Part shown: positions 22,044 through 56,602 of the stretch, piece after piece | How the letters are laid out: the number at the start of each line of letters is the position of its first letter | How positions within the stretch are numbered: position 1 is the stretch's first letter | Assembly (NCBI GenBank): GCA_003024175.1 | Contig: MDYQ01000136.1 | Span: 1-64,000 of the forward strand | Reading direction: 5' to 3' | DNA from: Planoprotostelium fungivorum | Taxonomy: Eukaryota > Evosea > Variosea > Cavosteliida > Cavosteliaceae | Length of the DNA: 64,000 nucleotides | Notes under the pieces: model-generated | The model's database searches: none | Told to the model about the DNA's origin: nothing | The model's input: the letters and a program-made list of their open reading frames with translations, nothing else | Position numbers and translations under genes: made by a program

Positions 22044-22049
22044 TTTATT
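22044..22049 (-). terminator. Poly(A) signal of the selenophosphate synthetase gene
   Basis: AATAAA on the minus strand, just past the SECIS. It implies a 3'UTR of more than 220 nt, long for this window, where several genes have AATAAA touching the stop codon. Confidence 0.7.
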
Positions 22050-22165: not shown

Positions 22166-22193
22166 GGTCCCCCAAGTCGAACTGCTAAAACTC
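22166..22193 (-). promoter_or_regulatory. 3'UTR segment complementary to the region after the Sec codon
   Basis: These 28 nt match the coding-sense sequence at 23531-23558 in inverted orientation with one difference (a C/T). In the mRNA they can form 28 continuous pairs with the coding sequence, the single difference giving G-U. The segment lies 72 nt after the stop codon and about 50 nt before the SECIS core. Similarity ends abruptly on both sides. A role in recoding is inference. Confidence 0.75.
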
Positions 22194-22265
22194 CTTGTTG
22201 ATATTTCGTGTACTGCCTCGAATAAAAGATCGTCTCCTCAGTTTCCACCACATTGTCATTGTCTC

Positions 22266-23746
22266 TTAGACTTCCACCAACTTGTAGTCCTCTCGAATGA
22301 TGACACAATTTCCCTTCTCATCATCACCCCTGGCCACCACCTGCCTCATGCGTCAGCCATGCGATGACAGAGACAGCGACACCTCTCCCACGATGAATAC
22401 GGGAGATCCATCCAATTGTTCCAACTCGGAGCAGAAGCTCTTCACAGATTCAGAAGGAAGAGCGATGAAGAGTCCTCCCGATGTCTCTGCAGACACACCT
22501 CTGAGTAGACCCCAGCTGTTGACCTACCACCCTTCACTTTTCACATTCACTCGCACTTCACCTTCTCATCTACAACGGCCATTCCCCTCAGAATGGGTAA
22601 CGTGTGCAAGTGAAAGTCAACGCTGCGCTTCTGATTCTGAGCGAGATTTCTCGCGTGGCCCAAGATACCAAAACCAGTGACATCCGTGGCAGCGTGAGCT
22701 CCATACTTGTGCATGAGTCGAGCGGCGTTCTTGTTCAGCCTAGACATGCTCTTAACTGCGTTTCGGTAAGCTTGGTCGGCCTCTTCTTCCGTGATGTGCT
22801 GGAGAACTGATTGGTACTTGTCCGCTTTGGCGGGTAAATTCTTCCACTGGTGAACGTTGACGGCGATTTGAATACCGAGGGGCTTCGTCAGCACGAGGAC
22901 GTCGCCCTCGCGAGCATCATCGGGTCTGGTCCAGATGAGTCACTCGTAGATGATGAGATCTCACGTGATGAACTCTCCTCGAGAGCAGACGGAAGAAGCT
23001 GTACCTCCGATGATGGGCCAGGGGTTGATCTGTTGCATCGTCGATGAATGAAAGTTGTCAACTCTCTGAAGAGCTCACCACTGTCTGACCACCGGTGACG
23101 CTGGTTCCTGCAGACTCGGCCTGATCTGTTCCAGATCAATTGTGATTCGATCATCGTGGACTGACCGTTGAAACCTTGGATCATAAGACGAGTGGAAATG
23201 TTCCTCTCCTCCTTCTCCATCTCATTGCTCGCAGCTAATATCATCAAGAGATTGTCACAGTCAACAACTCCCATGGCGTACAGATCAGATAAGACGTTTG
23301 CACAACCTATCTTGCCCTGCATGTATGGATCGTCCACGAGAGGATAGAAGAACTGAATACATCAACACGACTTGATCACTAACTCTCAACTCACATCCGT
23401 GGTAGACACCATGAAGAGATCCTTCTGTCTTAGTGGAGTGATACTACAATCCATTCCTATTTTTCCTCCTCCAATTCCTGAATCGTGTTAGTGATTGCGT
23501 TTACGTCCGAGATGATGTATCACCTTCCAAGAGTTTTAGCAGTTCAACTTGGGGGACCTTACATCCTTCATATGGTCAAATGTAATCGACTGTATTACTT
23601 CGATCACCTCATCCTTTGAGGCGAGTGTAATCAGTCATTCGAAATCCTTCTCTCAGCCCATGCTTTGTTGGATTGAACTGCAATCGTTATTGTTCCTTTT
23701 ACTATTTGAAACTCACCACTGAAGCATCTTCTTCCCCCGTCGCCAT
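22266..23746 (-). CDS. selD: Selenophosphate synthetase containing selenocysteine (SPS2/SelD)
   Basis: Makes selenophosphate from selenide and ATP, the selenium donor for selenocysteine synthesis. Exon 1 (23717-23746) encodes [10 protein letters not shown]. Exon 2 (23608-23677) gives [20 protein letters not shown], then KG and an in-frame TGA at 23609-23611. A 42-nt intron follows (23566-23607), and exon 3 starts [24 protein letters not shown] is the family's active-site motif, so TGA is read as Sec. Later exons: GIGMDCS-type motif, [75 protein letters not shown] ending YKLVEV. A SECIS lies in the 3'UTR. Ordinary translation would stop after about 33 residues. Confidence 0.95.
23609..23611 (-). 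promoter_or_regulatory. Recoded UGA (selenocysteine) codon
   Basis: The in-frame TGA sits between KG and GCKVPQ, the position held by Sec, Cys or other residues across SPS proteins. The exon ends one base later (TGA G), and the next exon supplies GA TGT AAG, keeping the frame. The site agrees with the SECIS found downstream. Confidence 0.93.
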
Positions 23747-34745: not shown

Positions 34746-35213
34746 GGTAAGATCAGACCATTGAGAAAAAACAAGAACGCGTAGGAATCAGCAAATGCCA
34801 AAGTGGATGTAATTAATAAAGATGGTACAATGTTGTTGAGTTATTATGCAGAATTGGTGAAACAAGATGCAAATGAAAGATAATTTCAACAAAGTATATA
34901 TGCTTTATCTAGAAATCTTTGTGTCTCAGCCAGGCAATGTGAATTGTCAATTCAATCATGTGTTGACAATACTTTCAAGTAATTGAGCGGTCGATTGTTA
35001 AAATTGACTGTAATTCACATGTCTGCTTTCTTTTGAAAGAGAACATACAACAAAAAAGGACATAACTTCACAACAATACCTCCAAAAAAATGCAGAAAAT
35101 TAATGAAGATTGAGCTGTCCGCGCACGCGCGGTGAGCAATTATTTCTGAATTTTCTGAGTTTTTTTGATATTTTTTTTAAATTTTAACATTAACATTATA
35201 ACTGTAACAAGAC

Positions 35214-35478
35214 CGCGCATGTGCAGTCTATTGTATTTGTAAACAAGCTCTGATGTGACCGTGAAAATCATAAGACATATGTACATCATCATTGCAATTG
35301 AAGTTGTCCGTCAGATATTGCATCACTCCATAACATATTTCAATTACAACAGAATATGGCTTTGCAAAATGCAAGATTGCAAAAAAATCACAAGAGGACA
35401 GCAAGTGGTTGCAAAAAAAGGTGCTTGTTTTTTGCCTCTATTGGGTTTGTATATTCTTGTTTTTTTTCAATGGTCCGA
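35214..35478 (-). repeat. Inverted-repeat arm, left
   Basis: The reverse complement matches 36315-36569 over about 255-265 bp at moderate identity, with shared stretches such as CAATAGACTGCACATGC, AGCCATATTCTGTTG and GCAACCACTTGCTGTC. It is part of a fold-back unit nested in the larger element. Confidence 0.8.
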
Positions 35479-36314
35479 TTAAGACACAAACAATCGTGCA
35501 AGAACTGCTCTTTGTTAGAGTGATAGAATCAGATGAACAAGACGGTTGCTGAGGATATAATGGATAGTGATGTCTATGGTAGATAGACAACAATTGATTA
35601 CAGAAACAGACGCTATTGATGATAAGAGGAGATAAAATGATGAGGTCATGATATGGAATAACAGTGAATTGAAAGACAGGAAGGAATGACAATTGGATGG
35701 AGAGAATGCGAGACATCACCTGTTAGTATCTCTCTATGCAAAGAATGGGTATGCCAAATAGCACATGCCAGGAGGAGTGCTATTCTACAGCTACTGCTGA
35801 AATGCAAGAGGCTCTACGGAGATGGAACACCTCTTCCCCAGACTATTGTTGAGTAATGATCTCACCTGGATGTTTGTGGACTTGTTCAAACCATGCTCAT
35901 ATGGAGTTGGTCCACATCACTGCCTCAAACGCTTCACTTTCAGCAATGTGCTGATGGACCATTGTAGTTCTAGAGGCAAAACTAGGAGAGCATCTCTTTT
36001 TATGTGACATCCATTTGTCCCATCTTGTTGCCAGCTCACTGTAAATTGTTTCAATTTGAGGAAATTATTCTGTTGTAACAACTCACATGAACTCTTATTG
36101 TGCAATCTTTGTCCTTTTTCTTCTAACTTCTCCTCTGTTTGCCACGCAATTGGGGTGGGAGGGCATCTGAGAGGGGGTGGGGGTGTTTTTGGGCCTGTCT
36201 TTGTCATGTCAAACTTCCAGGAAATCGATGCATCAAAGGACTCTTTCTGGCAGTATTCTATATGTCCACCTCCAACCTACGCTGTATAATTTATTCCTTT
36301 TGCATTGCACAGAT

Positions 36315-36569
36315 TGGATCATTCAGAGAAAACGAGAAAATACAAACCCAATATCTGAAAAAACAAGCACCTTTTTTTGCAACCACTTGCTGTCTTCTTT
36401 TGACTTTCTAGCAATCTTAAGTTTCACAGAGCCATATTCTGTTGAAATTAAAATAGGTAATGAAGTGTTACAACATCTTATGTTTCAGTGGCAATGCAAA
36501 TAAATCACAAAAATTTCCCAGATACATCATGAGCTAGTTTACAGATACAATAGACTGCACATGCATGGT
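36315..36569 (+). repeat. Inverted-repeat arm, right
   Basis: Partner of the arm at 35214-35478, separated by about 840 bp of AT-rich sequence with no recognised gene. The arms have diverged, so the insertion is not recent. Confidence 0.8.
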
Positions 36570-37597
36570 ATAGTTAAAGCTTCAACATGATACAAAAAGT
36601 CGATGCGATATCAAAAGAATTTCAAAAATAAATACAGAAAATTGGAGAAAATGCTTATTACACATACACAGACGTCTATCATTCTGACTTATGCTCATCT
36701 CATTTTTCTATTTTAGTTTCATCAAAGGCTAATTCTTGTTTTTTATGCAATGAAAGCGCAAAAAATGCAGGAGAATAAACTATAATTTGTAGCCTACTGT
36801 AATGTCTTCATCTTTTGGTTGGTTCCAAATGTGCAATAAAATTTGCATTGATTTTTTGAACTGATCATCATTACAACCATGCTATTCAGAAGAGATATCA
36901 ATGCTGTCAGAATTGTACACAAACTGTGTTGTGTCTCAATCAGAATGGTGATTACCCTCAGATAATATCTATATATATATATTATATAATCAGGACATAC
37001 AAAACAGATAATAAAGCAGAAGAACTGGTGTATATATGAGTGTATCCTGGCTTAAAATAATCTTGAACTTAATATTTCACTACAATTAGAGTATGGTAAC
37101 CTTAAACAGATCATCTTTATTGGAAGATTGAAATTGGGATTATTCTCTCAAGATATTGATATTTTTCCTGCCCAGTGAGTGGGAAATCCATAAGATTACC
37201 AATGTCTGGGATATAATCTACAGGAATAATACAATCTTCCTCATTCCCTCTAGCATAGTCAAATCTGTCTGTTTTTGATGTGTCCTCCATAGAGTGAAAA
37301 GAAAAGCCTAAACTTTCACTGAAAAATAGACCTACCAAGATTCACTATATGTACCCTTTTGTGGTGCTCCACAGCCCTCATCAACTTCATCAGATGGCAC
37401 AGAGTTTATCTCCTCTTGCTCAGCTTACATTCCGCCAATTTTGACAATCTTTTGATCCTTCCAGGGAGCTGATGCTATTTGGCCTACTTAATGTAAATAA
37501 TAAGCTTGGATAAAAATTTACCTTTCCCAGATAATTCAGCAATAAGAGTATAGAACCAATAGTCACCAATTGTTCTGGGTGCATAAATTTCCACCCA

Positions 37598-56390: not shown

Positions 56391-56500
56391 CTCTTTCGGA
56401 CCGGGAAACCGGCATCCGTTAAAATTGGAATGATACAGAGAAGATTAGCATGGCCCCTGCGCAAGGATGACACGCAAAATCGAGAAGTACCAAATTTTTT
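56391..56500 (+). ncRNA. U6: U6 spliceosomal snRNA
   Basis: Contains the invariant U6 core: AAAATTGGAATGATACAGAG (ACAGAGA box at 56435), GATTAGCATGG with the AGC catalytic triad, and the internal stem-loop CCCCTGCGCAAGGATGACACGC. It is preceded by a GNRA-type 5' hairpin (CCGGGAAACCGG) and ends in a T run (56495-56500), the Pol III terminator. The 5' end is estimated from the usual ~40 nt distance to the ACAGAGA box. Confidence 0.95.
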
Positions 56501-56501
56501 G

Positions 56502-56602
56502 AAGTCCCGAACCTCTGAACTCGATGAATCGATCGGAACGATACAGAGAAGATTACCGCGGCCCCTGCGCAAGGATGACACGCAAAGAATTACCAATTTT
56601 TT
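56502..56602 (+). ncRNA. Second, divergent U6-like copy
   Basis: Immediately follows the first U6. It keeps GGAACGATACAGAGAAGATTA and CCCCTGCGCAAGGATGACACGC and ends in its own T run (56597-56602). The AGC triad is ACC (GATTACCGCGG) and the 5' and 3' parts have diverged. It could be a pseudogene or a variant; the changed triad argues against normal splicing activity. Confidence 0.85.

Follow-up and report, generated by a model that had tools for sequence, protein, structure and literature searches.

The minus strand of the window (the whole stretch of 64,000 nt analysed here) carries a selD (SPS2) gene of Planoprotostelium fungivorum that, in our gene model, encodes a protein of 367 aa in ten coding exons separated by nine introns of 38–49 nt (Table 1). 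Its in-frame UGA lies at what we take to be the Sec/Cys position of the SelD family. The closest database protein to this model is PROFUN_11403 of the same species (92% identity over 99%). As deposited, PROFUN_11403 skips the Sec exon, and its C-terminus is the frame running through the 3'UTR. The related SelD proteins P0002–P0004 (75–79% protein identity) bear on this C-terminus: P0002 (...IEV) and P0003 (...LEV) agree with the TAA at 22268 in our model, and P0004 (...VVEVLLDH) is only four residues longer. Because of this agreement, the PROFUN_11403 model looks wrong both at the Sec exon and at the C-terminus, where we reject its extension through the 3'UTR arm described below, and it resembles a selenoprotein misannotation.

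Table 1. Features of the selD locus (positions in the window) and further Sec genes of the genome (by locus)
Feature	Position or locus	Strand	Basis
selD (SPS2) coding region	22266..23746	minus	gene model and translation
Sec UGA codon, residue 33, context KGUGCK	23609..23611	minus	gene model
Exon 3, 42 nt, containing arm 1	23524..23565	minus	intron coordinates
Arm 1, coding (VPQVELLKL)	23531..23558	minus	complement to arm 2
Arm 2, 3'UTR	22166..22193	minus	complement to arm 1 with one G-U
SECIS-like element, ATGA...AAAA...TGAT on an 11-bp helix plus basal helix	22053..22145	minus	fold and core motif
AATAAA, likely poly(A) signal	22044..22049	minus	sequence; function inferred
SelW	L034		in-frame UGA and family position
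SelM (CNRU)	L035		in-frame UGA and family position
TrxR ending GCUG	L037		in-frame UGA and family position
SelK ending GGUAR	L043		in-frame UGA and family position; weak family match

Eukaryotic SECIS elements are located in the 3'UTR and combine a UGA...GA core quartet with a helix II of about 11 bp and an AA in the apical loop. The predicted fold of the selD 3'UTR at 22145-22053 presents all of these traits. Rfam SECIS models gave no match at the selD 3'UTR, so that the call relies on the fold, the core motif and the position, and we designate the element SECIS-like; over the whole genome, RF00031 yielded one match, away from selD, weak and below its cut-off.

Exon 3 and the 3'UTR of selD contain inverted copies of one another over 28 nt, complementary at 27 of 28 positions and 1,337 nt apart in the DNA. 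The single difference becomes a U-G pair in RNA and leaves the encoded Val unchanged, as it falls at the third position of the codon (GTT). In the spliced selD mRNA, arm 1 begins 8 nt past the UGA and arm 2 begins 72 nt past the TAA, leaving a loop of 1,041 nt between them, and the SECIS-like element follows arm 2 by ~20 nt. Of the 42 nt that make up exon 3, 28 belong to arm 1, which leaves 7 nt on either side up to the splice site. The original prediction of a selD gene with a Sec UGA and a 3'UTR SECIS, joined by two inverted copies with one G-U difference, the coding one 8 nt past the UGA and the other between stop and SECIS, proved exact as to the arms and their spliced coordinates and was borne out for the gene, and for the SECIS as a SECIS-like fold. 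Allowing a 1-nt gap lengthens the alignment of the arms by three matched bases; the flanks on either side, however, show no more similarity than shuffled controls, which rejects a longer, decayed duplication. Since the exon arm encodes the enzyme, we take the 3'UTR arm to be the copy.

The pair stands far above chance. Scanning the window with up to three mismatches recovered no site besides the two arms, 100 dinucleotide shuffles of the window contained no match to the arm sequence, and inverted repeats of at least 22 nt and at least 90% identity within 3 kb were absent from all 20 windows that we simulated from first-order base statistics; by these shuffles and simulations a chance origin is rejected. 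The same scan of the whole 36.86-Mb assembly, again at up to three mismatches, found the two arms as sole sites, which rejects a repeat family. Among 37 sources (326,788 bases, counted after excluding the seven overlapping loci L001-L003, L029 and L031-L033 and dropping 15 low-complexity matches; five sources, the TrxR exon loci, overlap), other inverted repeats of at least 22 nt and at least 90% within 3 kb were confined to a single low-GC element at 35.2-36.6 kb, with three overlapping or neighbouring matches. A looser scan (at least 20 nt; 24 sources, 285,052 bases; 16 low-complexity matches dropped) brought one additional 20-nt pair, in L021. Such inverted pairs are rare in this genome, yet several hundred genome-wide are compatible with the sample, a bound obtained by hand arithmetic from none seen in ~0.22 Mb outside the window. 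As to placement, of 839,160 ways to position two arms in the transcript, 1,235 (0.15%, a post hoc statistic) bring arm 1 to 0-12 nt from the UGA while locating arm 2 after the stop codon and ahead of the SECIS. The inverted repeat is a real and unusual sequence feature, whereas its role in selenium use is putative. The low-GC island itself (window ~35202-36579) holds imperfect inverted repeats of considerable length (up to 121 nt, 84%) and is possibly a mobile element.

With a 28-nt inverted copy in the same message, this RNA could form an internal foldback. When the 60 nt following the UGA were paired with a 260-nt stretch of the 3'UTR, the predicted duplex reached -61.8 kcal/mol (z -9.0 against 500 shuffles), and the 28-bp duplex by itself -52.9 kcal/mol. 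The minimum free energy (MFE) structure of the selD transcript (1,361 nt, with assumed ends), a prediction for naked RNA at equilibrium, includes 28 of the 28 arm pairs, with a mean pair probability of 0.99 and a lowest of 0.83, and keeps the SECIS-like fold intact. Capping the pair span at 400 nt cost 56 kcal/mol, a penalty that stems partly from long pairs other than the arm helix. Local structure after the selD UGA did not rise above that of shuffled sequence (z +0.3 to +1.5, the spans being offset by one base in one comparison). In the MFE a 5-bp hairpin brackets the UGA, so some local structure is present here. Folding of the spliced mRNA, a check suggested by the original prediction, recovered its helix in full; its idea that the helix replaces a local element agrees with the local folds but has to be qualified by the small hairpin.

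In a non-exhaustive search of six protein families, we recognised four further Sec genes in the genome (Table 1); the SelK family match scored 23.2 bits, or 23.7 with its neighbours, against a cut-off of 23.3. None of the four had a complement between post-UGA sequence and 3'UTR beyond shuffles (z +0.4, +0.5, -1.1 and +1.4), in a comparison that covered 3'UTR stretches, not SECIS elements as such, and in which the 60 nt past the SelM UGA may include a few intronic bases and the post-UGA stretches of TrxR and SelK overlap the tested 3'UTR. On these four genes, a general device of the Sec genes of this organism is rejected. Deiodinase had no match in the genome search, which ran without a positive control, and GPx was discarded as a Sec gene, the exons matched by PF00255 reading Cys with no in-frame stop. 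A Sep15-like exon (L036) reads C-K-W at the site where Sec or Cys would presumably be expected. Two assembly details accompany these genes: part of SelW is directly duplicated around an N (L034, ~1335-1640), likely an artefact of gap joining, and two GPx-bearing loci (L028 and L029, on contigs C112 and C35) share 1,964 bp at 100% identity, representing redundant contigs or a recent duplication.

Two explanations of the selD repeat appear about equally likely. According to the first, which we regard as possible but short of probable, it is a neutral, recent templated inverted copy, made by a template switch or as filler DNA at a break, whose helix may form but would be invisible to selection. 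We infer one-step copying because the identity is near-perfect and the ends are abrupt, as for a templated inverted insertion: a single template-switch or templated-insertion event would have copied the 28-nt piece of exon 3, inverted, into the selD 3'UTR. The 27/28 identity with no significant flank extension fits one such step, and none of SelW, SelM, TrxR and SelK shows the feature. In yeast, inverted insertions at breaks, mostly of 5-34 bp, and templated insertions from distant genome places are documented in the accessible text of PMC11724301, and that of PMC8794818 describes template switching that makes stems in one step. The likeness to selD resides in a one-step reverse-complement copy of tens of bp. 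By contrast, the local cases given in these accessible parts fall far below the 1.3 kb that separate the selD arms, the foldbacks of PMC11724301 having loops of 41 nt and the analysis of compensatory changes in PMC8794818 being limited to a source-target spacing of no more than 8 bp, and the distant insertions described there have another arrangement. Also against a neutral copy, such repeats are rare (no other outside the low-GC element in the 37 sources, with their TrxR-locus overlap), and placement at UGA+8 together with a 3'UTR position before the SECIS would be coincidental. The rival that the original prediction had itself raised, a chance local inverted duplication of the gene, retains a likelihood close to that of a functional helix. 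If neutral, selD would offer a clean case of one copying event yielding a ready-made RNA stem.

According to the second explanation, which we propose just as tentatively, the arms arose by the same inferred copying step and their helix is a clamp in cis that aids Sec decoding. In the mature mRNA, the arms are predicted to pair as a 28-bp helix, the first base of which is the 12th nucleotide counting from the U of the UGA. With the UGA in the ribosomal A site, the mRNA entry falls around this position and would therefore meet the start of the helix. The most likely effect of the helix would then be to slow the ribosome at the UGA and to keep the SECIS-bearing 3'UTR close, so that Sec insertion would be favoured over termination and the helix would stand in for a local redefinition element; each read-through ribosome would open it, and it would probably re-form behind. 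This is consistent with a complement that is unique in the assembly, with the strength of the predicted duplex and the coexistence of all its pairs with the SECIS fold, and with its special, albeit post hoc, position. It also agrees with the local post-UGA structure not exceeding that of shuffled sequence, although stem-loops after the UGA are reported, in the accessible text of PMC4561486, for every UGA-containing SPS gene of eukaryotes that was studied. On the other hand, the arrangement is known from one genome and the four other Sec genes lack a complement, the 27/28 identity suits a young, unselected copy, a helix of -52.9 kcal/mol might equally hamper elongation, and ribosomes in translation would repeatedly unwind it; besides, the supporting MFE has the 5-bp hairpin around the UGA and assumed transcript ends. 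Both explanations can hold in sequence, a mutational origin being followed by later use.

A cis-acting clamp of this kind would have partial counterparts in known systems. The accessible part of a review (PMC8704476) describes SREs as structured elements 3' of UGA-Sec codons and also deals with the decay that follows unsuccessful Sec insertion. As in the SRE/HRE of selenoprotein and SPS genes, the selD structure begins a few nucleotides past the Sec UGA (8 nt 3' of it) and belongs to the same SPS family; but known ones are local stem-loops, whereas selD shows no local stem-loop above shuffled sequence apart from the 5-bp hairpin at the UGA and its 3' strand is supplied by the 3'UTR at a distance of 1,041 nt. 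Plant viruses have working long-distance readthrough elements, according to the accessible texts of PMC3234231 and PMC9553062. In these PRTE-DRTE pairs (CIRV, PEMV1, PLRV) a post-stop sequence pairs with distal 3' sequence over ~700 nt or more, and the selD post-UGA sequence is likewise complementary to distal 3' sequence; they differ in being viral, in a 6-nt pairing in CIRV, in serving non-Sec readthrough and in having compensatory mutants, the 28 bp of selD being cellular and predicted. The nearest published idea, as far as the accessible text of PMC11510084 goes, is the antisense SECIS tethering of Taylor and colleagues, in which viral mRNAs are proposed to tether a host SECIS by antisense pairing. 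There too a duplex adjoining the UGA draws a SECIS near, but in trans, between viral and host mRNA, whereas selD would do so in cis. Titles and abstract openings of the literature matches listed, among which subscription journals are thinly covered, included no long-range or 3'UTR-closed Sec element. If the clamp were true, a cellular selenoprotein would join the plant viruses as a user of long-distance readthrough elements, and the helix, if functional, would constitute a variant kind of selenocysteine element, closed by the 3'UTR. Were the post-UGA segment brought together with the SECIS-bearing 3'UTR by base pairing, the way in which such a SECIS contacts a UGA lying a kilobase upstream of it could be tested by simple compensatory mutation.

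The same pairing could alternatively serve as a ribosome-gated selenium sensor in cis, which we consider unlikely. With enough selenium, ribosomes would traverse the UGA and the exon/3'UTR helix would stay open; with little selenium, they would halt at the UGA and the 28-bp helix would persist between the terminating ribosome and the SECIS, where it might either boost Sec decoding of the selD message or flag this message for decay. Such a sensor would be a cellular selenocysteine element with its second strand in the 3'UTR. 

The remaining explanations are minor rivals to the clamp and the neutral copy. The duplex, 28 bp within one transcript, could give rise to small RNAs or act as a dsRNA signal for decay that lowers selD expression, and the genome does encode Piwi and RNase III domains; hairpin precursors of small RNAs, however, are not known to be closed by long, mostly coding loops such as the 1,041 nt of selD, and we judge this improbable. 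More improbable still is that pairing in the pre-mRNA masks exon 3 and alters its splicing, for which speak the extent of arm 1 in this exon, its closeness to both splice sites, the in-frame skipping of exon 3, and the conserved long-range pairings associated with pre-mRNA processing in human genes (PMC8052449, in its accessible part): arm 2 is transcribed ~1.3 kb later, when the introns flanking exon 3 (42 and 46 nt) would probably be spliced already. An assembly artefact, with the SelW duplication around an N and the identity shared by C112 and C35 as precedents in this assembly, is every bit as improbable as exon masking, the selD stretch having no N and no direct repeat over 17 nt, the arms differing by one base, and an isolated 28-nt inverted piece not being a usual misassembly.

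Elsewhere in the window, two tandem U6 snRNA matches lie 3 nt apart on the plus strand (56400-56499 and 56503-56602; 95.1 and 63 bits), the second of which may be a diverged copy.
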